Shown: piece after piece, positions 33,894-52,609 of the stretch
Layout: the number at the start of each line of letters is the position of its first letter
Numbering within the stretch: position 1 is the first letter of the stretch
Assembly: GCA_017512885.1 (NCBI GenBank)
Contig: JAFWEP010000006.1
Coordinates: 124,001-188,000, forward strand
Length of the DNA: 64,000 bases
Direction: 5' to 3'
Source: Erysipelotrichaceae bacterium
GTDB lineage: Bacteria; Bacillota_I; Bacilli_A; Erysipelotrichales; Erysipelotrichaceae
Notes under the pieces: generated by a model
Seen by the model: only the letters and a program-made list of their open reading frames with translations
The model's database searches: none
What the model was told of the DNA's origin: nothing
Translations under genes and position numbers: made by a program

Positions 33894-33896
33894 CGC

Positions 33897-35893: not shown

Positions 35894-35989
35894 AGGACCA
35901 GTGTAGGAGAAAAGGAAAACAAAAAGAAGTCTTCCGGAACAGGAAGATCCGGGTCATTTTTCCTATAAAAATAGTATAAAAACTGTCGG

Positions 35990-36107: not shown

Positions 36108-37700
36108 ATGGCAACAACTGTGAAAGAACTTTTGGCGTTACCGCTCTATCAGGAACATGTGCAGGTCGCCTGTGACCGGGGCCTGAACAACGAAGTATCC
36201 TATCTGACGGTCATGGAAGCACCGGATTTCCATATCGAGACGCTGGATCAGAAGACCATGATCCTTACGACCCTGTCTTCTTATTACCAGAGCACCAATT
36301 CGGTCAACGAGATCATCGAGAAGCTCTGTCAGGCAAAAGTCGCCGCGATCGCCATCAAATGTGGGCGCTTCCTGGAAAAGATCGATGACTCTACCGTCGA
36401 GATCGCTTTCCGTTACCGGGTCCCGCTCCTGGTCATCGACAGGGAGACCTACTTCCGGCAGATCCTGTCGGAATCGCTGGGAGCGATCGCCGATCAGCAG
36501 CATATCGTCATGCAGAAGACGATCCTCTTTGACAATGATCTGCAGGAAGTCATCTACCATAACGCCTCCTTTGAAGAGATCATCGCTGTCTTTACTTCCC
36601 GGGTCGACTGCTACTGCTGTCTGACTGATGCTGCCCAGCGGGTCCTCGTCGAAAGCAATGACCCGGAACTGAACCTGGGCTATCTGGATGTCCGCAAGGC
36701 CATCGAAGAATACCTGCGGGCCAAACGCAAGGACAGCCATACCACCTACTGGAACAACAGCCGGGAATATCTGCTGCCCTGCAGCAGTCAGGATGAAGTC
36801 AACGGTTACTTCTATGTCTGCTTCCCGGAAGAAGTCGACAGCATCTCCGTCTACTACCTGCGTTCGCTCTCCCGCACCCTCAGCATCAAGCTCTTTGAAC
36901 ATACGATCGAAGAGAAGGCTAAGGGCGAACTGGCAGCTGCCATCCTGGACGAGATCCTGTTCTCGGAGAACGTCAACGAGATGCTGACGATCGACCGGCT
37001 GAAGCTCTTCGGCTTCCTGCCACAGGAGCGCCATGTGCTGGTCCTGCTCAAACCGGAGGAAGACCACCGAGCCGGGACCCTGACCGAAGCGGTACAGAAC
37101 ATCTTCTCCCGTTATGCCGCGTCTGCCATCGCCTTTGAGCAGAGTGACCTCTTCATCGTCCTGCTGTCGGAGAGGGCCAAGCGCACCAACGCTCAGATCT
37201 ACCGCAGCATCGAAGAAGCGGCTGCCGAGGTCAACAAGCTCCTGAACGGCGGCTTCCGTTTCGGTGTCTCCACCATCGTCAACAAGTTCCGTCAGATCTC
37301 TTCCTGTTATACTCAGGCCAAGAAAGCTCTGAACTACGGCGAACTGATGAAGAATCAGAAGCAGTGTCACTTCTACAGTGACTATCTGGAACTGGGACTG
37401 CTCTCCCATGCCCTGCATACCAATACCAGCGGGATTCTCTTCCGGGACATCATCAATCCCATTCTGGAGTATGACCGCAAATACGAGATGACCCTCTGGG
37501 ATACCCTGATCCGCTGCTTCGAAGCGACCACTCTGGATTCTGTCGCCAAGGAGCTCTTCATCCATATCTCCACCCTGCGTTACCGGCTGCAGAAGATCGA
37601 AGTGCTGACCGGTTACAACTACTTCGATCCGAAGGACCGGATGATGTTGTATATGACCTATCTGCTCTACATGGCTGATCAGGCGGAGAAAGAAAACTAA
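36108..37700 (+). CDS. PucR-family transcriptional regulator
   Basis: 530 residues. The N-terminal ~125 residues are the purine-catabolism-regulator-like domain (VKELLALPLYQEHVQVACDRGLNNEVSYLTVME), followed by a GGDEF-like/CdaR middle region and a C-terminal PucR helix-turn-helix (LWDTLIRCFEATTLDSVAKELFIHISTLRYRLQKIEVLTGYN, residues ~463-505). Such proteins act as metabolite-sensing activators of catabolic genes. It stands next to the CoA-transferase/permease cluster, and a matching palindrome precedes all three units, so it is the likely regulator. AGGAAGGG before the ATG. Terminator follows. Confidence 0.93.
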   Translation: MATTVKELLALPLYQEHVQVACDRGLNNEVSYLTVMEAPDFHIETLDQKTMILTTLSSYYQSTNSVNEIIEKLCQAKVAAIAIKCGRFLEKIDDSTVEIAFRYRVPLLVIDRETYFRQILSESLGAIADQQHIVMQKTILFDNDLQEVIYHNASFEEIIAVFTSRVDCYCCLTDAAQRVLVESNDPELNLGYLDVRKAIEEYLRAKRKDSHTTYWNNSREYLLPCSSQDEVNGYFYVCFPEEVDSISVYYLRSLSRTLSIKLFEHTIEEKAKGELAAAILDEILFSENVNEMLTIDRLKLFGFLPQERHVLVLLKPEEDHRAGTLTEAVQNIFSRYAASAIAFEQSDLFIVLLSERAKRTNAQIYRSIEEAAAEVNKLLNGGFRFGVSTIVNKFRQISSCYTQAKKALNYGELMKNQKQCHFYSDYLELGLLSHALHTNTSGILFRDIINPILEYDRKYEMTLWDTLIRCFEATTLDSVAKELFIHISTLRYRLQKIEVLTGYNYFDPKDRMMLYMTYLLYMADQAEKEN

Positions 37701-37728
37701 AAGGAGGCTGCTCAGCAGCCTCCTTTTA
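37699..37728. terminator. Terminator between pucR and the convergent CoA-transferase gene
   Basis: AAAAGGAGGCTGC-TCA-GCAGCCTCCTTTT: a 13-bp perfect stem with AT tails on both sides. Confidence 0.88.
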
Positions 37729-37792
37729 CATGAACACTACGACAGTCGGAAAGGTGGAAAGGGGAAAGCCTGCGTAGGTGTTCAGGGAATGA

Positions 37793-38995
37793 TCAGATCT
37801 CGCCTTTTTCCCGCATATCCGCGATCTCTTCCCTGCTGAAGCCGATATGCTGAAGGACTTCCTCCGTATCCTGGGAAAGGACCGGAGAGGAGGAGCGGAC
37901 GTAGGGATTGGTCTTCGTCATCTTGATAGCCTGGTTGGTGATCCGGACTTTGCCGATCTTCGGATGATCGATGTCCGTAAACATCTTCCTCTCATCCCGG
38001 AAATGCGGATCATTGGCGACGTCTTCGATCGTATAGATCGGCGCGCAGGGCAGTCCGACCGCGATCAGTTTGTCAGCCAGTTCCCGGGTACCGTATCTCT
38101 TCGTTTCCGTTTCGATCAGCTGATCGAGGACTTCCCGGTTGACGACCCGGCCTTCGATCTTCTCGAAGCGGGGATCGCAGATCCATTCCTCGTGGCCGAT
38201 CTCCTTGGCGAACTTTGGCCATTCCCGGACCTGACCGGCCGAGATCGAGATGACGCCGTCTTTCGTGGCATAGGTATTGCCGGGAGCCGTCGCGTCGAAG
38301 GTGTTGCCGTGCAGACCGGGCACTCGTCCTTCGGTATTGTAGACAGCATTGAGCGAAGAGAGAGCGACGATGCAGGAATCCAGCAGGGCTACATCGATGT
38401 ACTGTCCCTCGCCGGTCTGTGAACGGTGATGCAGGGCGGCCAGGATCGCGATCAGCGCATTCTGGCCGGCCATGATGTCGGCGATCGAAGCCCCGCAGCG
38501 GATGTTGGGGCCGCCGGCCGGACCGGTCACGCTCATCAGACCGCTCATCGCCTGAGCGATGGGATCGAAGCAGGCCCGGGATGCATAGACGCCGCGTTGT
38601 CCGAAACCGGAGATCGAGGCATAGATGATCGTCGCGTTGATCTTCGTGACCTCTTCGTAGGAGAAGCCCAGACGTTCCATCACGCCTGGCCGGAAGTTCT
38701 CGACCAGGACATCGGCTTCGGCGATCAGCCGGCGCAGAGCCAGCTTGCCGCGTTCGCTCTTCAGGTTCAGGGTGATGCCCTTCTTGGAACGGTTGAAGGT
38801 AGCGAAGTAGGTGCTCTCGCCGTCGACTTTCGGCAGTGAATTGCGGGAGATATCCCCGCTGGGAGATTCCACTTTGATGACATCGGCTCCCAGATCGGCC
38901 ATCAGAGCCGTACAGAAGGGAGCAGCGACCATCTGTCCCATATCCAGTACTTTGATGCCTTTCAGCGCTGAACCGTCTGTCAGTGTTTCGTACAT
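37793..38995 (-). CDS. CaiB/BaiF-type (class III) CoA-transferase
   Basis: 400 residues, the normal length. Family features: LKGIKVLDMGQMVAAPFCTALMADLGADVIKVE (residues ~11-43), the LNLKSERGK loop, VENFRPGVMERLGFSYEEV (~98-116) and SISGFGQRG. The catalytic Asp fits the CFDPIAQAMSG segment (~143-153). These enzymes move CoA between carboxylic acids (formyl/oxalate, carnitine, bile-acid, phenyllactate types). It diverges from an SLC13-like permease. Its substrate is unknown; a second family member sits at 43313. AAGGA before the start. Confidence 0.95.
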   Translation of the reverse strand: MYETLTDGSALKGIKVLDMGQMVAAPFCTALMADLGADVIKVESPSGDISRNSLPKVDGESTYFATFNRSKKGITLNLKSERGKLALRRLIAEADVLVENFRPGVMERLGFSYEEVTKINATIIYASISGFGQRGVYASRACFDPIAQAMSGLMSVTGPAGGPNIRCGASIADIMAGQNALIAILAALHHRSQTGEGQYIDVALLDSCIVALSSLNAVYNTEGRVPGLHGNTFDATAPGNTYATKDGVISISAGQVREWPKFAKEIGHEEWICDPRFEKIEGRVVNREVLDQLIETETKRYGTRELADKLIAVGLPCAPIYTIEDVANDPHFRDERKMFTDIDHPKIGKVRITNQAIKMTKTNPYVRSSSPVLSQDTEEVLQHIGFSREEIADMREKGEI

Positions 38996-39157
38996 ATTCC
39001 TTGACCTCTTTTTCCATTACTACTTTACAAAAACGCAGTCTCTGACGGCATCCTGCAAAAGAAGGAAGACAGAGGATCTGCTCTCCTTCAAATGCACAGA
39101 ACAGCCCAGAAGGACCCGTTTCGCATCTTATATATAACACAGGAAGTACTTTTCGGC

Positions 39158-39177
39158 TTTCCTAGAAAAACAGGAAA
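39158..39177. promoter_or_regulatory. Operator candidate between divergent CoA-transferase and permease genes
   Basis: TTTCCTAG-AAAA-ACAGGAAA matches 15 of 20 positions of the palindrome at 35990 and keeps the TCC-N10-GGA core. The rest of the 38,996-39,265 gap holds the permease -10 box (TAGAAT, 39232-39237) and a perfect CCCCGCGCGGGG palindrome (39214-39225) occupying the -35 region. Confidence 0.55.
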
Positions 39178-39265
39178 AAACCCCCGCTGACTTCCCTCTT
39201 GATGAGGATGAAGCCCCGCGCGGGGATCTTTTAGAATACAACCGACAAGAAAGGATGGTTCTTTT

Positions 39266-40552
39266 ATGACACTACAGATCGCCATCTCCTTTGTGATCAT
39301 CCTGCTGATGATCATCGGCTTCGTCGGTGAGATCTTCCCGCTCTGGGTCACGGCTCTGATGGGCTGCCTCAGTTTCTTCGTGACCGGGATCATCGACAAA
39401 TCTGCCGTATTCTCCGGATTCTCCAATGATACGGTCTTCATGATCGCCGGTACGATGATCGTCGGTGAAGCCATGTTCCAGACAGGAGCCGCGCAGTTCA
39501 TCGGCAAAAAGATCATCAATGCCGTCGGTTTCGATGAACGGCGCATGATATTCGTCCTGATCCTGGTCGCCGGGATCCTCTCCGCTTTCACCAGCAACTC
39601 TTCCGTCATGGCGATGTTCCTGCCTCTGATCCGCTCGGTCGCTGCCGCTTCCGACGGTAAGATCAAAGCCAAGCACATCGTGATGCCGGTCGGTATCTCG
39701 ACCATGGTCGGCGGAGCCTGCACCCTGGTCGGTTCCACTCCCCAGCTGGTCTCCCAGTCCATGCTGGAGCAGGCAGGACTGCGCACCTTCAGTTTCTTCG
39801 AACTGGGGATCACCGGTCTGCCGCTGTTGATCCTACTGGCGGTCTGGTTCGCTTTCATCGCCTATAGACCGTTAGTAAAGAGCGTCGCCTACATGCCGGA
39901 TGAGCCGGACTACATCGCGGAAATGAAAAAGAACGGGGATGAGGAAGAAGTCCGTAACCCCAAGATGTATGTCTGCTTCGTTATCCTGATCGTCATGGTC
40001 GGACTCTTCCTCTCCGGGATCTGGACCTCCGGTACGATCGCTACGATCGCCGGCCTGGCCTGCATCGTGACCGGCTGTCTGAGTGCCAAGACTGCCTTCG
40101 AGAAGATGGGCTGGAACTCGCTGGTCGTCGTCGGTTCGACTCTGGGCGTCGCTAAGGGTCTGAACGCTTCCGGCGCAGCGGCTTATGTCGCCAACGGTCT
40201 GGTCTCCCTGATCGGCACCAATGCCTCGGTGGTCATCGTCGTAGCGGTCTTCGGTCTGATGTGCACCATCATGAGCAACCTGCTTTCCCATACCGCGACG
40301 ATCTCTCTGCTGACCCCGATCTTCATCCCGCTGGCTCAGCAGATGGGGCTCGATCCGACCCTCTTCATCTATATGGTGACCTGCTTTGTCATGTGCGGTT
40401 ACGCTACCCCGCTGGGTGTCGCTTCCTATGCCATGACCCTGGCGGAAGGCTACTCCTTCAAGGACTACCAAAAGATCGGCGGACCCTTCAATATCGTGGC
40501 CTATATCGTCCTGGTACTGCTCTGCTCCGCCCGTTTCCTCTTCGGATTCTGA
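39266..40552 (+). CDS. SLC13/ion-transporter-superfamily permease
   Basis: 428 residues with about 11-12 membrane segments. The duplicated plan of the CitM/DASS group is visible: VAGILSAFTSNSSVMAMFLPL with VGGACTLVGSTPQLVSQS in the first half, and the related MSNLLSHTATISLLTPIFIPL with GYATPLGVASYAMTLAEGYSF in the second. These carriers import di- or tricarboxylates (or sulfate-like anions) with cations. It diverges from the CoA-transferase gene and precedes the main catabolic operon; a paralogue is at 47686. It may bring in the acid that the cluster consumes. Confidence 0.88.
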   Translation: MTLQIAISFVIILLMIIGFVGEIFPLWVTALMGCLSFFVTGIIDKSAVFSGFSNDTVFMIAGTMIVGEAMFQTGAAQFIGKKIINAVGFDERRMIFVLILVAGILSAFTSNSSVMAMFLPLIRSVAAASDGKIKAKHIVMPVGISTMVGGACTLVGSTPQLVSQSMLEQAGLRTFSFFELGITGLPLLILLAVWFAFIAYRPLVKSVAYMPDEPDYIAEMKKNGDEEEVRNPKMYVCFVILIVMVGLFLSGIWTSGTIATIAGLACIVTGCLSAKTAFEKMGWNSLVVVGSTLGVAKGLNASGAAAYVANGLVSLIGTNASVVIVVAVFGLMCTIMSNLLSHTATISLLTPIFIPLAQQMGLDPTLFIYMVTCFVMCGYATPLGVASYAMTLAEGYSFKDYQKIGGPFNIVAYIVLVLLCSARFLFGF

Positions 40553-40583
40553 TCCGTCAATACTAGTAAAACTCCCGATCTCC

Positions 40584-40603
40584 TTTCCCACTTTTGCAGG
40601 AAG
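40584..40603. promoter_or_regulatory. Operator candidate upstream of the main catabolic operon
   Basis: TTTCCCACTTTTGCAGGAAG keeps TCC-N10-GGA in the same phase as the sites at 35990 and 39158, though its centre differs. It is centred about 42 bases before the start inferred from TACACT (40624-40629), where a class II activator would bind; the -35 region has no consensus. Confidence 0.45.
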
Positions 40604-40661
40604 AAAGGGCGGGTGGGAATCGCTACACTGAAACTGAACAAAGACAAAGAAAGGAAGAAAT

Positions 40662-42101
40662 ATGAAATACGGAATCAAATCGACAGGTGCCTATCTGCCG
40701 TACCGTTATCTGCCGAAGGCGGACATCAGCAAAGCCTGGGGCGGTAAGGGTGGCAAAGGCGAAAAAAGCGTTGCCGATGTAGATGAAGATTCGATCACGA
40801 TGGCCGTGGAAGCAGCTCTGGGCTGCTTCCGGACGACGAAACGTTCCGATGTCGATGCTCTCTACTTCGCAACGACCACGGCTCCCTACGCGGAAAAACA
40901 GAACGCAGCGCTGATCTCCGTCGCGTGCGACCTGCTGGACGACAAGGTCTTCACCGCTGATGTGACCTCCTCCACCCGGGCCGGCACCAACGCACTGCGT
41001 CTGGCACTGGACAGCGTCAAGGCCGGATCGGCCGAGAAAGCGCTGGTCACTGCTGCGGAGACCCGCAACGGTTTCCCCAAATCGGCACAGGAAGCCGGTT
41101 TCGGTGACGCAGCCGCGGCTGTCGTCGTCGCTGCCGGAGAAGCGGAAGACCTGCTGGCTTCCGTAGATTTCCAGGCTTCCGTCAACGAAGAGATCAACGA
41201 CTACTGGCGCAATGCGGATGAGAAGTTCGTCCGTCACGCCGAGAAGCGTTTCTGTGATGAAGAAGGCTACCTGCTGCAGGTCGGGCTGATCCTGAAAAAG
41301 GTCCTCCAGTCCGGCTATTGTGCAGAAGATTTTGCGAAAGTCGTCCTGGTCAATCAGGGCAATCCCAAACTTCTGAAGAAACTGCTGGTTAAGAACGGCA
41401 TTGCCGAGGAGAAACTCGTATCTACGTTCACTGATACGGTCGGCGACAGCGGTGCAGCTCAGGCACTCCTGGGTCTCGTCAATGCTTTGGAGAATGCCGA
41501 AGAAGGAGAAAAGATCCTGCTGGTCGATTACGGCAACGGTGCTTCCGCTTTCGTCCTGACCGTACAACCGGGCATCAAAGATCGTCCGGTCGCGCAGATC
41601 GCTCACTATCTCGCGACCCGCGCGCCGCTGGATTCCTATGCCCGCTTCCTTTCCTGGCGGGGCATTGCCACGGCAGAGCCGGGCACGCCCTACAAGGTAC
41701 AGCCTTCCTGGGCGCAGACCTGGCGTGAACAGCGCATCAACCTGCGCTTACACGGCAGTGTCTGCAAGAAGTGCGGTTCCGCGCTCTTCCCGATCAACCG
41801 GGTCTGTGACTGCTGCGGCAGCAAGGACGAATACGAAGAGTTCTCGGCGCAGGAAGAGATCGGCAAGCTCTATACCTTCTCGATCGATGAATTCGCCGGA
41901 CAGAGCGATGATCCGGTCATCATCCAGGCTGTCGCCGAAGTCAGCAACGGTGCTCACATCTACACACTGATGACCGACTTCGTCCGTGAGGAAGTGAAGG
42001 TCGATATGGACGTAGAATTCACATTCCGCCGTTTCAATGAACTGGGCAACTTCCCGAACTACTTCTGGAAGATCCGTCCGGTCAGAAGGGAGGTCCGCTG
42101 A
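40662..42101 (+). CDS. HMG-CoA-synthase-like protein fused to a DUF35 (Zn-ribbon/OB) domain
   Basis: 479 residues. Residues ~1-340 follow the thiolase-fold HMG-CoA-synthase/KAS III family (GIKSTGAYLPYRYLP, LYFATTTAPYAEKQNA, AEEGEKILLVDYGNGASAF). The usual nucleophile context C-(K/Y)-A-G-T reads STRAGT here (Thr105), so the catalytic Cys is missing. Residues ~355-479 are a DUF35 domain with an intact zinc ribbon (Cys368, 371, 382, 385) and an OB-fold (IGKLYTFSIDEF). With the SCP-x thiolase encoded next, this is the set found in archaeal thiolase/HMGS/DUF35 complexes and in PhlA-PhlB-PhlC acyltransferases, but with A and B fused. Its role is probably structural or acyl-binding within a complex. 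Confidence 0.9.
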   Translation: MKYGIKSTGAYLPYRYLPKADISKAWGGKGGKGEKSVADVDEDSITMAVEAALGCFRTTKRSDVDALYFATTTAPYAEKQNAALISVACDLLDDKVFTADVTSSTRAGTNALRLALDSVKAGSAEKALVTAAETRNGFPKSAQEAGFGDAAAAVVVAAGEAEDLLASVDFQASVNEEINDYWRNADEKFVRHAEKRFCDEEGYLLQVGLILKKVLQSGYCAEDFAKVVLVNQGNPKLLKKLLVKNGIAEEKLVSTFTDTVGDSGAAQALLGLVNALENAEEGEKILLVDYGNGASAFVLTVQPGIKDRPVAQIAHYLATRAPLDSYARFLSWRGIATAEPGTPYKVQPSWAQTWREQRINLRLHGSVCKKCGSALFPINRVCDCCGSKDEYEEFSAQEEIGKLYTFSIDEFAGQSDDPVIIQAVAEVSNGAHIYTLMTDFVREEVKVDMDVEFTFRRFNELGNFPNYFWKIRPVRREVR

Positions 42102-42102
42102 A

Positions 42103-43308
42103 ATGGCTGAATACTTCAAGAATAAAAACATCAAGGATGAACTGGCTATCATCGGCATGGGCTGCACCAAGTTCGGTGAACGCTGGGATGTCGGTCTCTC
42201 CGACCTGATCATCGATGCCGCCTTCGAAGCCTTCGAAGATGCCGGCATCAAGCCCTCCGATGTGGAAGTCTGCTACTTCGCCAATACCAATGCTCCGAAC
42301 AACTGTTCCGGTACTCCGGTCACCGATGCCCTGAAGATCCACGGTATCCCGGTCACCCGCAACGAGAACTGGTGCACCTCCGGTCATATCGCTCTGATCA
42401 ATGCCTGCCTGGCTGTCTCCAGCGGCATGTGTGATATCGCCATGGCCATCGGTGCCGAAAAGCTGAAGGACAAGGGCTACGCCGGCATGGGCGTCGGCCG
42501 CGGTCTGGATCCGGTCCGGGAAGCCCGGCGGGATGCCCCCGGTTCCTTCGCGCTGATCGCCGAGGCCTACGGCAAGAAATACGGTTATTCCTACGATGAG
42601 ATCAAGACCGCGCTGGCGAAGATCGACATCAAGAACCACTATAACGGCTCATTGAGCCCGAAAGCCCATTTCCACAACAAGCTGACCATGGAACAGGTCA
42701 TGGCCGCACCGATGATCGCTTCGCCCTTAGGTCTCTATGACTGCTGCGGTACTTCCGACGGCGCGGCCTGCGCGATCATCACCCGGGCTGATCTGGCAGA
42801 GAAGTTCCGCAAGGATCCGATCTACATCAAGGGCTTCGGCTGCGCGACGGATATGATCACCCCGCACTACCGTCCTCGGGACTTCGACTGGACCAGTTTC
42901 GAAGCGTTGCGCAACTGCGCCAAAATGGCTTACGAGATGGCTGGCATCACCGATCCCCGCGAACAGATCGATCTGGCGGAAGTCCATGACTGCTTCTCGG
43001 TCACGGAGATGACGATCTACGAAGATTTCGGTTTCTCCAAGCGAGGAGAAGCCATCAAGGATATCAACGACGGTTTCTTCGAGAGGACCGGCGGCTTACC
43101 TGTCAACGTCGACGGCGGCCTGAAGTGCTTCGGCCATCCGGTCGGTGCCTCCGGCATCCGTATGACCTACGAGATCTACAAGCAGCTGCAGCACAAGGTC
43201 GATAATCCCGAGCGTCAGCTGGAAGATGTCCACATCGGTCTCTCCCAGACCTTCGGCGGTCCGCCGCAGATCGCTGCCTGCATGATCCTGGGCAATGAGA
43301 AAGGATAA
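42103..43308 (+). CDS. SCP-x-type thiolase (acyl-CoA C-C bond enzyme)
   Basis: 401 residues from the ATG at 42103 (AAGGGAGG upstream), 1 base after the preceding stop. Thiolase residues are present: Cys91 in NENWCTSGH, His in AEVHDCFS, GHPVGASG and a late Cys (QIAACMILG). SCP-x-type members form or cleave beta-keto acyl-CoA bonds, and several depend on a DUF35 partner (Ltp2/ChsH2 aldolase, PhlC/PhlB acylase, archaeal acetoacetyl-CoA thiolase). The fused HMGS-DUF35 protein encoded directly upstream is the obvious partner. Direction and substrate unknown. Confidence 0.93.
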   Translation: MAEYFKNKNIKDELAIIGMGCTKFGERWDVGLSDLIIDAAFEAFEDAGIKPSDVEVCYFANTNAPNNCSGTPVTDALKIHGIPVTRNENWCTSGHIALINACLAVSSGMCDIAMAIGAEKLKDKGYAGMGVGRGLDPVREARRDAPGSFALIAEAYGKKYGYSYDEIKTALAKIDIKNHYNGSLSPKAHFHNKLTMEQVMAAPMIASPLGLYDCCGTSDGAACAIITRADLAEKFRKDPIYIKGFGCATDMITPHYRPRDFDWTSFEALRNCAKMAYEMAGITDPREQIDLAEVHDCFSVTEMTIYEDFGFSKRGEAIKDINDGFFERTGGLPVNVDGGLKCFGHPVGASGIRMTYEIYKQLQHKVDNPERQLEDVHIGLSQTFGGPPQIAACMILGNEKG

Positions 43309-43312
43309 GAAG

Positions 43313-44497: not shown

Positions 44498-44498
44498 C

Positions 44499-45308
44499 AT
44501 GATCAGTTCCTACTATGTCGATGTGGACGGGGTAAAGATCTGCGTCGAGACCAACAACGGCCCCAAAGAGAACGGCACGATGTGCTGCTTCGTCTCCGCT
44601 GGAAGGGACTCCCGCTCTTACCACGGTATCATGAACTATCTGCAGGACCGTTACGAAGTGATCTGCTTCGATATGCCCGGTCACGGCAAATCCTGGCCGC
44701 TGCCGGGACTGAAGTGCCTGGATAACTACGTGGACTTCTGTGAGTTCATCATCCGCACCTTCGAAGTCCTGGGCATTGAGAATCCGATCTGTCTGGGAGC
44801 AGCCTTAGGCGGCAATGCCTGCTTCTATCTGGCACAGCACATCCCGATCAGGGCGATCGTCTCGATGACCGGAACAGACTACTCTCCCTTCGTATCACAG
44901 AACGTGATCGACAACCTCGATCATCCCTACGCCAGTGTGCAGCATACCCATCTGGACTTCACGAACAGTCTGATCGGTTCCGCTGTCCCGCAGGAGAACC
45001 GTGATCTGATCCTCTGGGGCGTGATCAGTGAATGTGGCCGAACGAAGAAAGCCGATTACGGCGGAGTCTATAATGGTTTCGATGTCCGCAAGGATATGGA
45101 CAAAGTGACCTGCCCCTGTCTAATCATCCGCGGCGGAGATGACTGGAGTGAGAACCAGCAGATGCATGACGAAGTCATGGCCAGACTGGTCAACTGCCGC
45201 TATCTCAGCTACAAGGTGATCCCCGGGATCGCGCACTATCATCCGACGGAAGCGCCGGAACTGATCAGTGACGTGATCGTGCAATTCTTGCAGGAAGCAA
45301 AAGCTTAG
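44499..45308 (+). CDS. Alpha/beta hydrolase homologue lacking the nucleophile Ser
   Basis: 269 residues, 1 base after the CoA-transferase gene. The alpha/beta-hydrolase fold is clear (VICFDMPGHGKSWPLPG, LIIRGGDDW, late His in GIAHYHPTEAPE). At the nucleophile elbow it reads LGAALGGN, with Ala102 where the paralogue at 45729 has Ser104 (VGCSVAGN). It thus should not work as a normal serine hydrolase. It may be a non-catalytic partner, or may use another residue, as some C-C lyases and decarboxylase-like members do. Similar length and colinear sequence show it is a duplication of the 45729 gene. Confidence 0.9.
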   Translation: MISSYYVDVDGVKICVETNNGPKENGTMCCFVSAGRDSRSYHGIMNYLQDRYEVICFDMPGHGKSWPLPGLKCLDNYVDFCEFIIRTFEVLGIENPICLGAALGGNACFYLAQHIPIRAIVSMTGTDYSPFVSQNVIDNLDHPYASVQHTHLDFTNSLIGSAVPQENRDLILWGVISECGRTKKADYGGVYNGFDVRKDMDKVTCPCLIIRGGDDWSENQQMHDEVMARLVNCRYLSYKVIPGIAHYHPTEAPELISDVIVQFLQEAKA

Positions 45309-45325
45309 CTTGAAAAGGAGGAACT

Positions 45326-45718
45326 ATGTCGAATCAGGAAAAGCTTGAGAAATTCAAAAAACTTCAGGAAATGATCAACGGTCCGGAAGCCGCTGAATTC
45401 CTGGACTACTGGGATGGTCGTTTCTTCACGGGAGATATGACCTTCATCATGAACGGAGTCCCCTTCAACATGTTTTTCTACAAGGGGAAGATGATCGACG
45501 TCTTCATCGGTCAGCCGTCTAACGGCTACAACGTCGGTCTCTCCGGAGATGAGGAACAGTGGAACACCTTCTTCCAGCACCGCAACTTCCAGCTCGCTAC
45601 TTCGGTCAAGCACTGTGACCGCCCCTTCACCAATCTGGGAAGCGCTCTGGCCAATCGTCAGAACAACGCTGTCATCGCTCAGGTCGCCCGCTTAACAGCG
45701 AAGGCGTTCTGCGACTAA
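45326..45718 (+). CDS. Small SCP2-like protein (tentative)
   Basis: 130 residues with AAGGAGG before the ATG. N-terminal helix (KLEKFKKLQEMINGPEAAEFLDYW), then beta strands DMTFIMNGVPFNMFFYKGKMIDVFIG and NVGLSGDEEQWNTFFQ. The order strand-rich half, then 'edW' helix, recalls sterol-carrier-protein-2 domains that bind hydrophobic acyl chains, but the match is weak. Located between the two hydrolase paralogues, it may bind the same ligand. Otherwise unknown. Confidence 0.75.
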   Translation: MSNQEKLEKFKKLQEMINGPEAAEFLDYWDGRFFTGDMTFIMNGVPFNMFFYKGKMIDVFIGQPSNGYNVGLSGDEEQWNTFFQHRNFQLATSVKHCDRPFTNLGSALANRQNNAVIAQVARLTAKAFCD

Positions 45719-45728
45719 GGAGGACACA

Positions 45729-46550
45729 ATGGCTATTCGCGGCGCATATGTGAATGTCAAGGGCATTCAGACTTACTATGAGACCAACGATGGTCCGAAG
45801 AACCCGCATGGCACGCTGGTATGCCTGCATACCGCCGGCCGTGACACCCGTCAGTACCATGGTCTGATGGACTACTTCCAGGATAAGTACAATGTCATAG
45901 CCTTCGATTTCCCAGCTCATGGCAAATCCTGGCCGCTCCCCGGTCTGACCGGCATCAAGACCAAGGAAGAATACGGCGAATTCACCTGGGCTTTCATCCA
46001 GGAACTGGGCATCGATGATCCGATCGTCGTCGGCTGCTCTGTCGCCGGCAACATGGTCTACTACCTGGCAGAGAACTATCCGGTCCGGGCAATGGTCTCC
46101 ATGCAGGGATCCCCGCAGATCCTGGCCATGCAGACGAGCTACGGCACCACCGTTGACCTGCTGGACAACCCCTATGTTTCCTGCCAGCACTCACACTGGG
46201 ATTTCTCCGAGAGCCTGATGGGCAAGAAGTGCCCGAAGGAAGCGCATGACCTGATCATGTGGGGCGTCTGCCAAGAGATCGGCCGCACCAAGAAGTGTGA
46301 CCTGTCCCTCTACAACAACTACGATGTCACGGCTGATCTCGATAAGATCACCTGTCCGTCCCTGCTGATCCGCGGTCTGGATGACTGGAACGTTCCGGAT
46401 CATTACTACGAGACAGCGATCAAGGGTATGGTCAACTGCCCGAAACTGGAATGGAAGAAGGTCGAAGGCTACGGTCACTTCATCGCTGTTGAAGCTCCGG
46501 AGATCGTCGGCGAACTGATCGACAACTTCCTGAACGAAGCAAACGCGTAA
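45729..46550 (+). CDS. Alpha/beta hydrolase with intact nucleophile
   Basis: 273 residues, AAGGAGGACACA before the start. Elbow VGCSVAGN with Ser104; FDFPAHGKSWPLPGL; acid in LLIRGLDDWNVPDHYY; His in VEGYGHFIAVEAPE. The group includes enol-lactonases, C-C bond hydrolases (MhpC/BphD) and esterases. The neighbouring muconate-cycloisomerase-like gene starts 4 bases on, which recalls the CatB/PcaD pair of the beta-ketoadipate pathway, where a lactone made by one is opened by the other. That reading is inference. Confidence 0.93.
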   Translation: MAIRGAYVNVKGIQTYYETNDGPKNPHGTLVCLHTAGRDTRQYHGLMDYFQDKYNVIAFDFPAHGKSWPLPGLTGIKTKEEYGEFTWAFIQELGIDDPIVVGCSVAGNMVYYLAENYPVRAMVSMQGSPQILAMQTSYGTTVDLLDNPYVSCQHSHWDFSESLMGKKCPKEAHDLIMWGVCQEIGRTKKCDLSLYNNYDVTADLDKITCPSLLIRGLDDWNVPDHYYETAIKGMVNCPKLEWKKVEGYGHFIAVEAPEIVGELIDNFLNEANA

Positions 46551-46554
46551 GACC

Positions 46555-47664
46555 ATGGCAAAGATCGTTGATGTCGAACTGATCCCGATCGCGATCCCCC
46601 AGACGTATGAAACGCACTGGGCCAACGGTCAGATCAGCGTCGCCAAGCATACCCTGATCAAAGTCATCGCCGAAGACGGTACCTACGGTGTCGGGGAAGC
46701 CGTACCGCGTACCGGTATCTACGGTGAGACGCAGGAATCCATCCTGCAGGTGCTGCGGGAAGCGATCATCCCGCGCATCCTGGGCATCGATTCCTTCAAT
46801 ACCGAACTGCTCTGGGAACGCATGAACGAGACCCCGTTCAATTTCGTTGCCAAGGGTACGGTCGATGTCGCTGTCCACGACCTGAACGGCAAGCTACTGG
46901 GTGTTCCGACTGCTTATCTCTTAGGCGGTGTCTATCGCGAGAGAGTGCCGCTCTGCTGGGTCTCCGGCGGTTCCTGGTTCCCGCATGACTTCATCATCGA
47001 TGAGACCAAGCGCATCATCTCCGAAGGCTACAAGGGCATCAAGCTGAAAGCCGGACACTTCAAGGAAGACGTAGAACTGGCCAAGGAGATCCGCAGCTTC
47101 GCACCGGAAGACTTTGAGATCTACCTCGATCCCAACCAGCTCTACACCCGTGAACAGCTGATGTATGTCGGCGCACACCTCTCCGGTGTCGTCAACGCCA
47201 TCGAAGAGCCGGTACCGGCCTGGAACGACGTGACCCGCAAGGAATTCACGGAACGTTACCCGCTGATCCCGCTGCTTTCCGATGAGAGCACCTTCTCGGT
47301 CCCGGATACTTACCGTCAGATGCAGTTAGGGGCTATCAAGCGTCTGGCGATCAAGATCCCGCGCACCGGTTACACGATGTCCAAGAAACTGGTCCATCTG
47401 GCCGAATGCAACCACATGCAGACCCAGATCTCCACACAGGCCGAGACAGACCTCGGCTGCGCAGCCTGCCTGACCTTCGCTGTTTCCAGCCGTCAGATCA
47501 GCCTGCCCTGTGAGATCGCCTACTATAAGAAAGGCATGTATCCGAAGTCCCTGTTAGTCGAACCGTTAAAGATCGAAGACGGCTACATGGTCTTCCCGAA
47601 CAAACCCGGTATCGGTGTTGATGTCAACTGGGATGTCATCGAAGAATATCGCGTAAACAAATAA
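46555..47664 (+). CDS. Muconate-lactonizing/mandelate-racemase-type enzyme (enolase superfamily)
   Basis: 369 residues. The MLE-subgroup active site is complete: Lys163-x-Lys165 (IKLKAG), metal ligands Asp192 (YLDPNQ), Glu218 (IEEPVP) and Asp243 (LLSDES), and the second base Lys267 (AIKIPR). Such enzymes abstract a proton next to a carboxylate to cycloisomerise, racemise, epimerise or dehydrate. In this cluster a lactone-forming or dehydrating step is plausible. The ribosome-binding site is weak (4-base gap after the hydrolase), suggesting coupling. Confidence 0.95.
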   Translation: MAKIVDVELIPIAIPQTYETHWANGQISVAKHTLIKVIAEDGTYGVGEAVPRTGIYGETQESILQVLREAIIPRILGIDSFNTELLWERMNETPFNFVAKGTVDVAVHDLNGKLLGVPTAYLLGGVYRERVPLCWVSGGSWFPHDFIIDETKRIISEGYKGIKLKAGHFKEDVELAKEIRSFAPEDFEIYLDPNQLYTREQLMYVGAHLSGVVNAIEEPVPAWNDVTRKEFTERYPLIPLLSDESTFSVPDTYRQMQLGAIKRLAIKIPRTGYTMSKKLVHLAECNHMQTQISTQAETDLGCAACLTFAVSSRQISLPCEIAYYKKGMYPKSLLVEPLKIEDGYMVFPNKPGIGVDVNWDVIEEYRVNK

Positions 47665-47685
47665 AAGAAAAGGGAGAAACAAGAA

Positions 47686-48978
47686 ATGCCTATTTTTGGG
47701 GAATTACTGGCGCCTTACGCTCCGGTCGTCTGTCTGATCATCCTGATCATCACCCTCATCCTCTTCGCTACCGAAGTCTTTAAATCCGGTATCACAGCGA
47801 TCGCCTGCGGTATCGTCATGAACCTCTGCGGCTTCATCACCAATGCCGAATTCACTTCCGGCTTCTCGAACACAGTCACCATCTTCTGCTTAGGTATCGC
47901 CATGGTTGGTACGGCAATGGCCGAGACCGGCTGCGCTTCCTACCTCGGCAAGAAGCTGCTGTCTGTCGTGAAACTCGATGAGAGAGGCACGATCGTCGTC
48001 CTGTTCACGCTGGTCGCGATCCTGTCCGCCTTCCTGAACAACACTTCCTGTGTCGTCATCGGTCTCTACCTCTCCATCGCGATCTGCCAGTCTTCCGAAG
48101 GCCGCTTCAAAGTCCGCAACTTCCTGATGCCGATGGGTATCGCCGGTGTCTGCGGCGGCGGCGCTTCCATGATCGGTTCCACCACTCAGCTGTCCATCGC
48201 GGCATTGCTGCCGGATATGGGCTTCGAAATGAAGATGTGGGACCTGGCCAAGCCGGGCGTCATCGTACCGCTGATCTTCATCGTCTGGTACTACTTCTTC
48301 GGCTACAACATCATGCAGAAGACCTTCGACTTCCCGGAACCGGAAAGCATGAAGGATCTGAACTCCAGCGCCCTAAAGGAATTTGATCCAAAGAACTTCA
48401 AGGGCTGGATCCCGGCAATCATCCTGGTCGGCTGTATCGCTCTGACCCTCCTCGGCTGGAACATCGCGATCGTCGGAATGATGGGTATGTGCTTAGCCAT
48501 CATGACCGGCAGTATCTCCTTCAAGAGAGCGGTGGAAACGACGGACTGGAACGTCTTCTTCCTGATCGCCGGCGGCGTTGGTTTCGCAGCCGGTGTCAAG
48601 AACGCGGGTACCGCGGACATGGTCGCCAACTGGATCGTCCGCGTCCTGGGCGCTGCTCCGCCGATCGTCTATCTGGTCATCTTCACGATCCTCTGCGCCA
48701 TCATGACCAACGTCATGACCAACATCGGCACGGCGCTGATCATGACGCCGATCGCGGCTGCGGTCGCGGCACAGGCCGGCTTCAGCGCTTACCCGCTGAT
48801 CCTCTGCGTCATCTGGGGCGCCAACATGCCTTACTCCACCCCGGTCGGTGCTTCTCCGATCACCATGACCATGATGGGCGGATACCGATTCAAGGACTAC
48901 ACACGAGTCAATATCATCCCGAACATCGTCGCTGCGATCGCATTGGCTCTTCTGACTCCGATCTTCTGGCCGCTTTGA
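47686..48978 (+). CDS. SLC13/ion-transporter-superfamily permease
   Basis: 430 residues, 11-12 membrane segments, AAGGGAG upstream. Same architecture as the permease at 39266: AILSAFLNNTSCVVIGLYLS with GVCGGGASMIGSTTQLS in the first half, and MTNVMTNIGTALIMTPIAAAV with ANMPYSTPVGASPITMTMMGGYRFKDY in the second. Probably imports a carboxylate used by the operon. Two such carriers in one cluster suggest either import and export or two related substrates. Good terminator after it. Confidence 0.9.
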   Translation: MPIFGELLAPYAPVVCLIILIITLILFATEVFKSGITAIACGIVMNLCGFITNAEFTSGFSNTVTIFCLGIAMVGTAMAETGCASYLGKKLLSVVKLDERGTIVVLFTLVAILSAFLNNTSCVVIGLYLSIAICQSSEGRFKVRNFLMPMGIAGVCGGGASMIGSTTQLSIAALLPDMGFEMKMWDLAKPGVIVPLIFIVWYYFFGYNIMQKTFDFPEPESMKDLNSSALKEFDPKNFKGWIPAIILVGCIALTLLGWNIAIVGMMGMCLAIMTGSISFKRAVETTDWNVFFLIAGGVGFAAGVKNAGTADMVANWIVRVLGAAPPIVYLVIFTILCAIMTNVMTNIGTALIMTPIAAAVAAQAGFSAYPLILCVIWGANMPYSTPVGASPITMTMMGGYRFKDYTRVNIIPNIVAAIALALLTPIFWPL

Positions 48979-48991
48979 TCTGTAACTGAAG

Positions 48992-49024
48992 GGGTGCTCC
49001 GGAAACGGAGCACCCTGTTTCTTT
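48992..49024 (+). terminator. Terminator after the second permease
   Basis: GGGTGCTCCG-GAAA-CGGAGCACCC (10 bp, GNRA loop), then TGTTTCTTT. Confidence 0.88.
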
Positions 49025-49054
49025 GCCGCAGAGTTCCGGCAGTGAGGTAACGAT

Positions 49055-49393
49055 ATGTACGAGTATGAAGATTTCAATTTCACCAATGTCACCTGGAAGA
49101 TGCGTGGCAAGAACGGTGAGGCATACCTGAACAAAGACGGTCAGGTTTATATCAAGCGGTCCGGCTGGTTCGATACCCCTTACCAGCTGCTGACCCGCGG
49201 AGCGACATTGTTTACGGTGGATGAGGTGGAAGACATCGTCATCAAGGAACCGGGCCTGGCCCGGGGCTACATCGACTTCTTCCCCCGCAACAAGCGTAAA
49301 GCCCGGGTCTGGCTGACCAATCCCTACCACCTTTCCGTCGCACAGACGATGAAGGAACGCATCGAGGAAAAAAGAAAGAAGTCCGTCAAATGA
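49055..49393 (+). CDS. Cluster-associated hypothetical protein
   Basis: 112 residues, GTGAGGTAACG before the start, no signal or membrane segment. Beta-rich centre (GEAYLNKDGQVYIKRSGWFDTPYQLLTRGATLF) and a charged C-terminal helix (SVAQTMKERIEEKRKKSVK). I recognise no family. It overlaps the thioesterase gene by 4 bases (ATGA), so it belongs to the second unit of the cluster. Confidence 0.75.
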   Translation: MYEYEDFNFTNVTWKMRGKNGEAYLNKDGQVYIKRSGWFDTPYQLLTRGATLFTVDEVEDIVIKEPGLARGYIDFFPRNKRKARVWLTNPYHLSVAQTMKERIEEKRKKSVK

Positions 49394-49809
49394 TCGATCT
49401 GCAGAAAGTGATGGATTCCCGCAACAACGCCCATTCCTTCCGCAATCTGATCGGGATCCGGCTGGTCGAACTGAAAGAAGGGGAAGCCCGCTGTGAACTG
49501 AAGATCACCTCCTGGCTGGAGAATCAGATCCATTCGGTGGCGGGCGGCTGTCACTACGCGATCGCTGACTCGGCAGCCGGAGCGGTCTGTGCCGCGACCG
49601 GCATCAAAGCTACGACGGTCAGCGCGGATTTCCACTATCTGCGCCCCGGCATTCGCTGCGAAAAACTCATCTGCACTGCTAAAGAGATCAAACACGGCAA
49701 GCGGCTGAGCGTCATCTCCACAGAAATCCGTGATCAGGATGATCGGCTCCTGAGCACCGGGATCTTTACCTTTGCCTATCTGAATGAGCCGATCGATTAC
49801 CTGGACTAA
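49390..49809 (+). CDS. PaaI-type hotdog thioesterase
   Basis: 139 residues. Hotdog signature HSVAGGCHYAIADSAAGAVCAATG (residues ~48-71; catalytic Asp in IAD) and VSADFHYLRPG. It would release CoA from an intermediate or dead-end acyl-CoA of the pathway, a common role for PaaI in ring and side-chain catabolism. Paralogue of the gene at 28461. Coupled by overlap to the preceding gene. Confidence 0.92.
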   Translation: MIDLQKVMDSRNNAHSFRNLIGIRLVELKEGEARCELKITSWLENQIHSVAGGCHYAIADSAAGAVCAATGIKATTVSADFHYLRPGIRCEKLICTAKEIKHGKRLSVISTEIRDQDDRLLSTGIFTFAYLNEPIDYLD

Positions 49810-49832
49810 ACAAGGAAAGAAAGAGAGAAGCA

Positions 49833-50510
49833 ATGTATACCTGTGCCCACTGCACGGTCAAAGGCTGCCGTGTAAAAGAAACTGAGAGACCCCTGCCGAA
49901 GAACTGCCCGATGGTCGTCCATCCGGAGATGACCGGGACCGTGCAGCCGGAATACTTTGATGAAAAAGACCACGAGCTCTATGTCCATTCCTCCGAGATC
50001 GAAGCCCTCGGTTACGGGAACTGGCCGCGTATCCGGGAGATCGTGGAGCTCTGCTATATGATGAACTGGAAGAAGGTCGGTCTGGCTTTCTGCGGCGGTC
50101 TGGCGGACGAAGGCCGCCGGGCGGCGGACATCTTCCGTAAGAATGGCCTGGAAGTCGTCTCCGTGATGTGCAAGACCGGTCACTGCGAGAAGGAGCAGGT
50201 CGGCATCCCGGTGGAACATCGGCTGCGCAAGTCGCTGGATTCCTGGGAATCGATGTGCAATCCGGTCATGCAGGCCAAACTGCTGAATGAACAGAAGGTC
50301 GACTTCGCGGTCGTCTGCGGACTCTGCGTCGGCCATGACACCCTCTTCTACAAGTACATCGAAGCCCCGGTCACCACCCTCATCACCAAGGACCGTCTGC
50401 TGGGTCATAACCCGGTCCAGGCGCTCTATGTCAACGGCATGTATATGGACCGCCGGGTCTACCGGGATCTCGATCCCAGTACTCCGCAGTATCCCCAAAA
50501 GGAGAACTGA
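49833..50510 (+). CDS. DUF1847 Cys-rich protein
   Basis: 225 residues. N-terminal CAHCTVKGCR plus NCPM (residues 4-32) look like a metal or Fe-S site; further Cys occur in MCKTGHC (~110) and VVCGLCVGHDTLF (~165). This fits the DUF1847 family found in anaerobes, function unknown. The gene is between the thioesterase and the flavoenzyme (3 bases), so it may be an accessory redox or metal protein for the latter. Confidence 0.85.
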   Translation: MYTCAHCTVKGCRVKETERPLPKNCPMVVHPEMTGTVQPEYFDEKDHELYVHSSEIEALGYGNWPRIREIVELCYMMNWKKVGLAFCGGLADEGRRAADIFRKNGLEVVSVMCKTGHCEKEQVGIPVEHRLRKSLDSWESMCNPVMQAKLLNEQKVDFAVVCGLCVGHDTLFYKYIEAPVTTLITKDRLLGHNPVQALYVNGMYMDRRVYRDLDPSTPQYPQKEN

Positions 50511-50513
50511 ACG

Positions 50514-52460
50514 ATGGAATATCCGCATCTCTTCACTCCGCTCACCATCGGCAGTACGACTGTGAAGAACCGTATCTTCATGTCGCCGATGACGACCAAT
50601 CTCTGTGATACGCAAAACCATGTGACAGAGGAAGTGATCGCCTACTATGAAGCCAGAGCGAAAGGCGGTGTCGGACTGATCACGGTGGAAGGCGCCATGG
50701 TCACCGAGAAGTCGCACTACCGCGGACTGACCAATCTCGGTCTCTATGATGATTCCCAGATCCCGATGGTCGCAAAGTTGGCTGAGAGCATCCACCGCTA
50801 TGACTGCAAGGCGGTCGTGCAGCTGCTGCACGGCGGACCGGCCTGTCTGCCCAAAGACAATGACGGGATGATCCCATGGGCGGCTTCGCCGATCGCCATC
50901 CGGACCGGCTGGCTGGCCGGGATCGTGCCTAATGAGATGCCGTCTGAGATCGTGAAAAAGACCGTACAGGAGTTTGCGGCGGCTGCCGAAAGGGCGAAAA
51001 AAGCCGGTCTGGACGGGGTGGAGATTCATGCCTGTCACCGGCACGGTCTGATCGGTTCCTTCCTCTCTCAGCTCTCCAACAAGCGTGTCGATGAATACGG
51101 CGGCAATGTCGACGGACGTCTGCGTTTCCTGCTGGAAGTGATCCGGGAGACCCGGAAACGCTGTGGAAAGGACTTCCTGATCTTTGTGCGGCTGTCGTTG
51201 GAAGAGTTGGAATACGGCGGACAGTCCCTGATCGAAGGTATGCATATTGCGCAGGAAGTGGAGAGAGCCGGAGCGGACTTCATTCACTTCTCCCGCGGTA
51301 CGACCGAGACTTTCTGGATCACCACCCCGCCTTCCGGTTCCCCCAAGGCCTTACATTCGCAACTGGCCAAAGAGATGAGGCAGGCTCTGCATATCCCTTA
51401 TGGGGTCGTCGGACGCATCTCCGAGCCCTGGATCGGGGAGCTGGTCCTGGAACAGAAGCGGGCGGATGCCGTCTACATTGGCAGGGCCCTGCTCTGTGAT
51501 CCGGAATTCCCCAACAAAGCCCGGGAAGGCAGGAGTGAAGCGATCCGGACCTGCATCGGCTGCACCGACTGCATCGGCCGGGTGACCGGACCGGTCATCC
51601 ACTGCGCGATCAACCCGGAAAGCGCCCGGGAGACCGTTAAACTGCAGAAAGCGGAACATCCGAAGAAGGTGCTGGTCGTCGGCGGTGGTCCCGGCGGACT
51701 GCAGGCAGCAGCCGTACTGGCGAAGCGCGGCCATCAGGTCACGCTGGCGGAGCAGGAACCCCACCTCGGCGGCAACATGCAGACAGCGGGCATCCCCAAC
51801 GGCAAGGAAGACCTGCTGAACGGGGTACGCTCTCTGATCTACGCGGCCAAAGAGGCCGGTGCCGATCTGCAGTGTGACACAAAGGTCGACCGCACTTATC
51901 TGCAGACGCACGACATCGACGAAGTCGTACTGGCTTCCGGCGCTCTGCCGCTGTTGCCGCGTTTCTTAAACGGACAGGCCGTCTCGGCTCTGGATATCCT
52001 GAAAGGGAAAGCCTCCAGCGGCCGCAATATCGTAGTGATCGGCGGCGGTTCCGTCGGCTGTGAGACAGCGGATTTTCTGATCCATCCCCGGAATGACTAC
52101 AATGTCAGCGGCAAGAAGGTGACCATCCTGGAACTGACCGCGAACATCGCGGCCGATGACCGTTCCTATCAGCGTACCCTGCTGATGGAGCGGCTGATCG
52201 CCAAGGGCTGTGTGATCATTACCGGCGCGGAAGTTACGGAAGTCGGAGAGCGCTGCGTGACCTACCGCAAGGATGGCGAGCTGCATACCCTGGAGGATGT
52301 CGATACGGTCGTGGCAGCCGTCGGTCTTTTCAGCGATACCTCGCTGCAGAAAGATCTGGAAGAACTGCGGATCCCGTATCATACGATCGGGGATGCGAAA
52401 AGACCGCGCCGGATCACCGATGCGGTCAGCGAAGCGCAGACAGTCGCCGAAACGATCTGA
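50514..52460 (+). CDS. Enoate reductase-like flavoprotein (OYE + Fe-S + NAD(P)-binding)
   Basis: 648 residues, three parts: an old-yellow-enzyme TIM barrel for FMN (~1-335), a [4Fe-4S] site with Cys347, 350, 353 and 364 (CIGCTDC...HC), and an FAD/NAD(P)-binding half (VLVVGGGPGGLQAAAVL at ~385 and VVIGGGSVGCETADF at ~507). The family reduces activated C=C bonds (2-enoate reductase, 2,4-dienoyl-CoA reductase, BaiCD/BaiH, FldZ). The barrel's usual HAAHGYL reads HACHRHGL, so the catalytic Tyr position is altered. It is probably cytosolic. Last gene of the cluster, with a terminator. Confidence 0.94.
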   Translation: MEYPHLFTPLTIGSTTVKNRIFMSPMTTNLCDTQNHVTEEVIAYYEARAKGGVGLITVEGAMVTEKSHYRGLTNLGLYDDSQIPMVAKLAESIHRYDCKAVVQLLHGGPACLPKDNDGMIPWAASPIAIRTGWLAGIVPNEMPSEIVKKTVQEFAAAAERAKKAGLDGVEIHACHRHGLIGSFLSQLSNKRVDEYGGNVDGRLRFLLEVIRETRKRCGKDFLIFVRLSLEELEYGGQSLIEGMHIAQEVERAGADFIHFSRGTTETFWITTPPSGSPKALHSQLAKEMRQALHIPYGVVGRISEPWIGELVLEQKRADAVYIGRALLCDPEFPNKAREGRSEAIRTCIGCTDCIGRVTGPVIHCAINPESARETVKLQKAEHPKKVLVVGGGPGGLQAAAVLAKRGHQVTLAEQEPHLGGNMQTAGIPNGKEDLLNGVRSLIYAAKEAGADLQCDTKVDRTYLQTHDIDEVVLASGALPLLPRFLNGQAVSALDILKGKASSGRNIVVIGGGSVGCETADFLIHPRNDYNVSGKKVTILELTANIAADDRSYQRTLLMERLIAKGCVIITGAEVTEVGERCVTYRKDGELHTLEDVDTVVAAVGLFSDTSLQKDLEELRIPYHTIGDAKRPRRITDAVSEAQTVAETI

Positions 52461-52552: not shown

Positions 52553-52595
52553 GTATGATATATCTGCATGAATATATGCTGAATTTGCATGAATA
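52553..52595 (+). promoter_or_regulatory. pduL-ackA promoter region with a 10-bp direct repeat
   Basis: A TATGAT-like -10 box near 52554 is followed by TGCATGAATA at 52565-52574 and again at 52586-52595, 21 bases (two helical turns) apart. Tandem same-face repeats just downstream of a promoter suggest a repressor site. Confidence 0.4.
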
Positions 52596-52609
52596 CGAAA
52601 GGAAAAAAT

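Follow-up and report, generated by a model that had tools for sequence, protein, structure and literature searches.

Which carboxylic acid might be degraded, and by what chemistry, by the genes at 36108-52460 of a 64,000-nucleotide stretch (hereafter the window) of contig JAFWEP010000006.1 from an Erysipelotrichaceae bacterium? The initial annotation had called the locus an uncharacterised, CoA-dependent catabolic cluster for a carboxylic acid with parts that recall the beta-ketoadipate and bai pathways, and we found all genes that it named in the open reading frames (ORFs) of this region and their Pfam/NCBIfam profile matches (Table 1). Conservation of the gene set, the permeases, the CoA-transferases, the thiolase residues and a shared palindrome support such a cluster; the interpretation as a whole is partly supported. 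In the literature that was searched, which did not cover subscription journals, no published description of this cluster was found. Our tentative reading, possible although short of probable on the sequence evidence, is that the genes encode a beta-ketoadipate-like lower pathway rebuilt from non-orthologous parts in anaerobes.

Conservation and transfer of the cluster

The genes are spaced almost without gaps, and nearly the same gene order is found in two Solobacterium metagenome-assembled genomes (MAGs), L006 (roe deer omasum) and L007. Hence, the cluster is more than a chance neighbourhood. When genomes were scanned with HMGS-DUF35 as query, seven others came up, which makes eight carriers with the window genome. 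We distinguish type I clusters (window, L006 and L007) from type II clusters, found in five clostridial MAGs (L008-L012) and extended by L026-L029. A search for the gene set in other genomes had been proposed by the initial annotation, and both Solobacterium MAGs proved to have nearly the whole set, arranged as in the window: CaiB1, permease a, HMGS-DUF35, thiolase, CaiB2, the alpha/beta hydrolase ABH1, an SCP2-like protein, the second hydrolase ABH2, the MLE-subgroup enzyme, permease b, a 112-aa protein, a thioesterase and an OYE-type reductase. In L007, CaiB1 is inverted and PucR stands downstream of the cluster, whereas in L006 PucR (61% identity) stands upstream; a weaker PucR (33-35%) stands beside the cluster in four other genomes. 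DUF1847 is present in the window operon, as annotated, but it is missing from the L006 and L007 clusters and thus does not belong to the conserved set.

Type II clusters have in common HMGS-DUF35, the thiolase and CaiB2, together with the SCP2-like protein and ABH2 on the same or another contig. As a rule, the type II core includes a second CaiB; CaiB1 adjoins the cluster in L006 and L007 and the type II core in L009 and L010. In the sequence read, MLE and OYE are absent from the type II loci, where accessory genes occur in varying sets: TtdAB, a further hydrolase-like protein (ABH3), a nitroreductase, PrpD, an AbrB-like permease, a 2-hydroxyacid dehydrogenase (2HDH), LeuCD, TAXI/TRAP and PrpF. 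To judge from this gene content, the core may also be supplied by different front-end enzymes (hydratases and a dehydrogenase). Samples of the class (1/395), the genus (1/4) and the phylum (1/392) gave no carrier besides the query's own genome, and the family of L010 (1/397) none besides L010, with some of the sampled genomes being incomplete (three of the four in the genus sample are under 90% complete). The cluster is therefore rare, with only a few carriers among gut and rumen bacteria.

RpoB of the window genome shares 69% identity with that of L006, compared with 93% for the thiolase, 92% for ABH2 and 93% for MLE. L006 and L007 share 84% identity in RpoB yet only 74% in ABH2, and CaiB2 of the window is 90% identical to that of L007 and 81% to that of L006. 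Since the identities between genera exceed that of RpoB and vary gene by gene, the cluster is mosaic and has been transferred horizontally.

Table 1. Features of the cluster and its candidate operators, with positions in the window.
Feature	Position	Strand	Remarks
Candidate operator TTTCCTATAAAAATAGTATA	35959-35978	.	5' of PucR; 2 mismatches to TTTCCTA-N6-TAGGAAA
Candidate operator TATCCTACAAAAGTAGGATA	35990-36009	.	5' of PucR; 31 bp from the TTTCCTATAAAAATAGTATA site
PucR-family regulator	36108-37700	+	PucR, GGDEF_2 and HTH_30 domains
CaiB1, class III CoA-transferase	37793-38995	-	Asp173 at catalytic position
Candidate operator TTTCCTAGAAAAACAGGAAA	39158-39177	.	Between divergent CaiB1 and permease a
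Carboxylate permease a (SLC13a)	39266-40552	+	CitMHS / Na_sulph_symp (DASS-like)
Weaker candidate operator	40584-40603	.	5' of HMGS-DUF35; 3 mismatches
HMGS-like domain + DUF35 (Zn ribbon + OB) fusion	40662-42101	+	Thr72, Thr105; probable thiolase partner
SCPx-type thiolase	42103-43308	+	Cys91, His295-Asp-Cys297, His345
CaiB2, class III CoA-transferase	43313-44497	+	Asp168
ABH1, alpha/beta hydrolase fold	44499-45308	+	Paralogue of ABH2, Ala102 for nucleophile Ser; type I only
130-aa protein, predicted SCP2 (sterol carrier protein 2) fold	45326-45718	+	Core member
ABH2, alpha/beta hydrolase	45729-46550	+	Ser104, Asp218/219, His250; core member
MLE-subgroup enolase-superfamily enzyme	46555-47664	+	Muconate-cycloisomerase-like
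Carboxylate permease b	47686-48978	+	CitMHS
112-aa protein	49055-49393	+	Weak DUF4429 match; kept in type I
PaaI-like hotdog thioesterase	49390-49809	+	Kept in type I
DUF1847 protein	49833-50510	+	Within operon; window only, not L006/L007
FMN/FAD OYE-type reductase (FadH/BaiCD family)	50514-52460	+	Kept in type I

Predicted enzymes and their partners

The MLE-subgroup enzyme carries all ligands of its subgroup (K163, K165, D192, E217, D243 and K267), and among solved structures the muconate cycloisomerase 3dg3 matches it best (138 bits). Its closest plasmid relatives, from Rhodococcus, Pseudonocardia, Tsukamurella and Streptomyces, adjoin catA, catC, pcaD or pcaIJ. In the tree, the window MLE is sister (89/93) to the actinobacterial MLEs of catechol clusters, on a long stem (1.57); R52, YGE(T/S)Q and K-x2-RTG-x-T are common to it and nearly all of these (RSG in one).

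The thiolase has the residues of SCP2-type thiolases, with Cys91, the HDC motif and His345 (GHP) invariant in the eight genomes, and its nearest solved relative is the archaeal acetoacetyl-CoA thiolase 6esq (210 bits). Steroid retro-aldolases (Sal/Ltp2) have YDCY or YDHF instead of HDC and no thiolase Cys (PMC12329534); a retro-aldolase function was rejected for the window enzyme, which has HDCF and Cys91. The annotated HMGS-DUF35 fusion is present, but it had been overlooked that its HMGS domain is non-catalytic: Thr72 and Thr105 stand where the HMGCS of 6ESQ has Glu82 and Cys114, and Thr is found at these positions in all relatives where they are aligned. The same Glu and Cys are missing from PhlA, the non-catalytic subunit of the Friedel-Crafts acylase PhlACB (PMC6392133), and homologous fusions beside SCPx thiolases on aerobic plasmids lack the catalytic residues as well. 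HMG-CoA or mevalonate chemistry was rejected because these residues are absent, as in PhlA. Judged from sequence, HMGS-DUF35 is a probable partner of the thiolase.

Comparable assemblies are known. 6ESQ comprises thiolase, HMGS-like and DUF35 components and provides the closest solved thiolase and HMGS-like chains, but in the window the HMGS-like domain is fused to DUF35 and catalytically incomplete. In PhlACB, too, the active subunit has a thiolase fold and is joined by an HMGS-like partner that is non-catalytic and by a DUF35 protein (PMC6392133). However, its subunits are separate polypeptides; moreover, the thiolase of the window retains the HDC and GHP motifs and stands nearer to acetoacetyl-CoA thiolase than to PhlACB (210 vs about 90 bits). 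In the paired OB-fold protein and acetyl-CoA acetyltransferase genes of aerobic degraders, the fusion directly precedes an SCPx thiolase, and a CoA transferase often accompanies the two; these pairs differ in their low identity (29-35%) and in sitting with acyl-CoA dehydrogenases and oxygenases.

Both CaiB proteins match Pfam CoA_transf_3 (394.6 and 420.1 bits for CaiB1 and CaiB2) and have the features of class III enzymes, including an Asp at the catalytic position (Asp173 and Asp168) within a conserved GASxxD. Succinate-hydroxymethylglutarate CoA-transferase is among the best solved relatives of CaiB2. Two alpha/beta hydrolases had been annotated and both exist, although it had escaped notice that one lacks its catalytic residue. 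The Ser104/Asp/His250 triad of ABH2 is complete in each of the eight genomes. In ABH1, which shares 46% identity with ABH2, every type I genome has Ala102 instead of Ser. Despite the triad, ABH2 scores only 50.8 bits against PcaD TIGR02427 (cut-off 255.85). In type II clusters, ABH3 (L009 19983-20873, L010 19959-20825 and L008 3825-4625) has a strictly conserved HMSGSSS, with Met/Leu at the nucleophile position, and lacks the usual catalytic His.

Two small ORFs had been left unnamed by the initial annotation, those of the 112-aa protein and of the 130-aa protein, the latter a core member. No Pfam family, SCP2 included, matches the 130-aa protein at E up to 10. Its AlphaFold2 model (pLDDT 81) matches SCP2 structures in Foldseek with probability 0.97-1.00, with the highest TM score, 0.67, to 2cx7 and an E of only 0.026-0.04; the model thus predicts an SCP2 fold. 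An SCP2-type gene lies directly 5' of an ABH2 homologue in Caballeronia pSBC2-4 (37%) and in Natrinema (31%) too, which is independent evidence for a link between the two proteins; these SCP2 counterparts also score below the Pfam SCP2 threshold (19.6 and 18.9 vs 21.3 bits). In the Caballeronia locus (L042 9636-12795), an MLE-family enzyme, an amidohydrolase, SCP2 and the ABH2 homologue border on a cluster with a Rieske oxygenase; the SCP2-ABH2 pair thus has an aerobic relative. Unlike that of the window, this neighbourhood is aerobic, with a Rieske oxygenase, an amidohydrolase and a non-orthologous MLE (22%).

Both annotated SLC13 permeases are of the carboxylate type, though with scores of 178.9 and 114.8 they remain under the cut-off of 198.6 for NCBIfam DASS. 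The proposed likeness to bai proved weak, as OYE reaches 460.2 bits against BaiCD NF041087, where the cut-off is 825. No oxygenase was detected within the cluster by Pfam/NCBIfam profiles, which bears out the statement that it has no ring-cleaving one.

A profile search of the whole window genome, estimated to be 100% complete, gave no crotonase (ECH_1), no MaoC and only weak Rossmann matches for 3HCDH_N; one acyl-CoA dehydrogenase is encoded outside the cluster. The Solobacterium genome G399, a type I relative, has no ECH_1 and no strong 3HCDH matches either. The beta-keto substrate of the thiolase is thus probably not derived from crotonase-type or ordinary beta-oxidation. With no crotonase and no clear 3HCDH, a beta-keto acyl-CoA would most simply come from a keto acid made before CoA is attached, for instance by hydrolysis of a lactone. 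Together with the MLE phylogeny, these absences strengthen the likeness to the beta-ketoadipate pathway.

Candidate operators and neighbouring genes

Within the otherwise poorly conserved gap between CaiB1 and permease a, a 23-bp block is identical in the window and L006 and holds the inverted repeat TTTCCTAGAAAAACAGGAAA. We searched for TTTCCTA-N6-TAGGAAA, a motif derived from the window sites, with up to 2 mismatches. Three sites were found in the 64-kb window (35959, 35990 and 39158; mean of shuffles 0.07), all of them in gaps: two ahead of PucR and one in the CaiB1-permease a gap. A fourth, weaker one with 3 mismatches precedes HMGS-DUF35. In L006, sites likewise lie in the CaiB1-permease gap and ahead of PucR. 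The type II loci have four (mean of shuffles 0.38), all 5' of cluster genes, namely 2HDH in L009 and L010 and HMGS-DUF35 in L012. About 10 sites with <=2 mismatches occur in the whole window genome, three of them at the cluster, and genome-wide the motif is no commoner than its reversed control, which occurs more often; only its clustering in regulatory gaps is informative. Since the palindrome is shared 5' of PucR and the operon, the two probably form one PucR regulon, and we infer that PucR is the protein that would bind the candidate operators.

The operon may be divided into two expression levels by a strong terminator-like hairpin at 48991-49016, which separates permease b from the 112-aa gene. 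PucR lies 3' of OYE and adjoins a nitroreductase in L007 (19393 to end) and L025 (10020-12182). The L007 nitroreductase is 65% identical to the one at 33880-34488 of the window, which may belong to the system, since its L007 counterpart adjoins PucR downstream of OYE. Directly after the operon, at 52589-54375, a PduL-type phosphotransacylase gene overlaps that of an acetate kinase (AckA). The pair was not found in the sequence fetched beside the L006 or L007 cluster and was left out of the conserved set; in the window genome it could yield ATP from acetyl-CoA, the predicted thiolase product. Further on, a single ORF (54439-56211) encodes an unusual combination of a PatB-type C-S lyase/aminotransferase (residues about 1-400) and an AhpC/TSA-redoxin (about 410-590).

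A possible pathway and its alternatives

From the gene set, the catalytic and missing residues, the palindrome, conservation and transfer, which were read from the sequence, we propose an order of reactions, a complex, a lactone step and a substrate class. PucR would control a catabolic operon whose SLC13/CitMHS-type permeases would import a dicarboxylate or a lactone-forming carboxylate. MLE may interconvert an unsaturated diacid and its lactone, in either direction, by muconate-cycloisomerase chemistry. A beta-keto diacid would result from hydrolysis of this lactone by ABH2, whose putative partners are the pseudo-hydrolase ABH1 and the SCP2-like protein. CaiB1 and CaiB2 would transfer CoA to this acid from succinyl-CoA or acetyl-CoA. 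The SCPx thiolase, in complex with the dead HMGS-DUF35 scaffold, would then cleave the product with CoA to acetyl-CoA and a second acyl-CoA, which may feed the CoA-transferases. OYE could handle the double bond or serve as electron sink, and the thioesterase could relieve stalled CoA esters.

The actinobacterial catechol branch follows the same logic of cycloisomerase, alpha/beta hydrolase, CoA-transferase and thiolase, and its MLEs, the nearest to that of the window, adjoin catA/catC/pcaD/pcaIJ and a thiolase. In contrast, the window cluster has CaiB proteins for PcaIJ and the SCPx thiolase with HMGS-DUF35 for PcaF, SCP2 and OYE as extra members, and a host of anaerobic lineage. As CatC, PcaIJ, PcaF and a ring-cleaving dioxygenase are absent from it, it is not a member of the beta-ketoadipate pathway. 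The conserved set, the sister placement of MLE, the thiolase residues, the ABH2 triad, the lack of ECH_1 and MaoC and the palindrome favour a route that resembles that pathway. Several points weigh against it besides the missing enzymes. MLE scores 146.8 bits where the muconate cycloisomerase model TIGR02534 has its cut-off at 335, and on its long stem branch its identity to true MLEs is no more than about 30%; ABH1 and ABH2, at about 50 bits, are far under the 256 bits required for PcaD. SDR-type ketoreductases may still supply the keto group, no muconate source is established in the gut, and the modelled SCP2 fold hints at a bulkier ligand. Finally, type II clusters have no MLE and carry TtdAB, 2HDH, PrpD or LeuCD, from which it follows that the first steps or the substrate differ between the types. 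The fuller proposal, that strict gut anaerobes ferment a muconate-type diacid or lactone, left by plants, the host or aerobic neighbours, by a transferred, PucR-controlled route of this kind with a new machine of thiolase, dead HMGS-DUF35, SCP2 and dead hydrolase, is doubtful in all its parts taken together.

The type II genes bring another substrate into view, a hydroxy-di- or tricarboxylic plant acid (aconitate-, citramalate- or alkyl-malate-like). MLE would then dehydrate its substrate or open a lactone, a task that TtdAB, PrpD, LeuCD and 2HDH would take over in type II, and a substituted, oxaloacetate-type beta-keto acid would be activated by CaiB and cleaved by the thiolase. The fumarase/tartrate-dehydratase, PrpD, PrpF, LeuCD and 2HDH around the type II core, the permeases of di/tricarboxylate type, the absence of classical beta-oxidation from the window genome and the occurrence of dehydratases in the MLE superfamily are in line with this. 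However, the nearest relatives of MLE are muconate cycloisomerases and not acid-sugar dehydratases, and the accessory genes, which vary from one type II genome to another, may be for other substrates. Compared with the beta-ketoadipate-like route, a plant acid of this kind accounts better for type II but agrees less well with the MLE phylogeny, and we consider it rather unlikely. The substrate could also be a bulky alicyclic, terpenoid or aromatic-side-chain acid, activated by CaiB, reduced by OYE and thiolytically cleaved in its side chain or ring, with SCP2 presenting the hydrophobic acyl-CoA, in kinship to steroid-type or benzylsuccinate-type (Bbs) pathways. In Novosphingobium, Niveispirillum, Rhodococcus and Variovorax, aerobic CoA-dependent clusters do contain pairs of HMGS-DUF35 and SCPx thiolase, and the SCP2 fold and the BaiCD/FadH-like OYE would suit such an acid. 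The two CaiB proteins and the DUF35-associated thiolase recall BbsEF, a pair of class III CoA-transferases, and BbsAB, an SCPx thiolase with its DUF35 partner. Yet counterparts of BbsG, BbsH and BbsCD are missing from the window operon, and no benzylsuccinate synthase was seen in the cluster. The aerobic clusters have acyl-CoA dehydrogenases, hydratases and SDRs by the thiolase, none of which is in this operon; crotonases and MaoC are absent from the genome, and the OYE and SCP2 scores are well under named-family levels, which makes a bulky acid an unlikely substrate.

It might also be argued that transport and CoA-salvage genes lie here in a loose neighbourhood that serves no single pathway, given that DUF1847, PduL-AckA and the flanking transporters are particular to the window and half the genes differ between type I and type II. 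The nearly identical order in three genomes, the shared palindrome and a transfer as a unit, with identities far above that of RpoB, render this highly improbable.

If the beta-ketoadipate-like reading is correct, the cluster would give gut and rumen bacteria a fermentative, oxygen-free counterpart of the lower beta-ketoadipate pathway, and it would predict a dietary or host acid that is eaten by only few species. The thiolase, the catalytically dead HMGS-DUF35 fusion and the separate SCP2 protein make up a concrete multi-part enzyme system. With this system and a testable candidate operator, the question of the substrate is open to direct attack.

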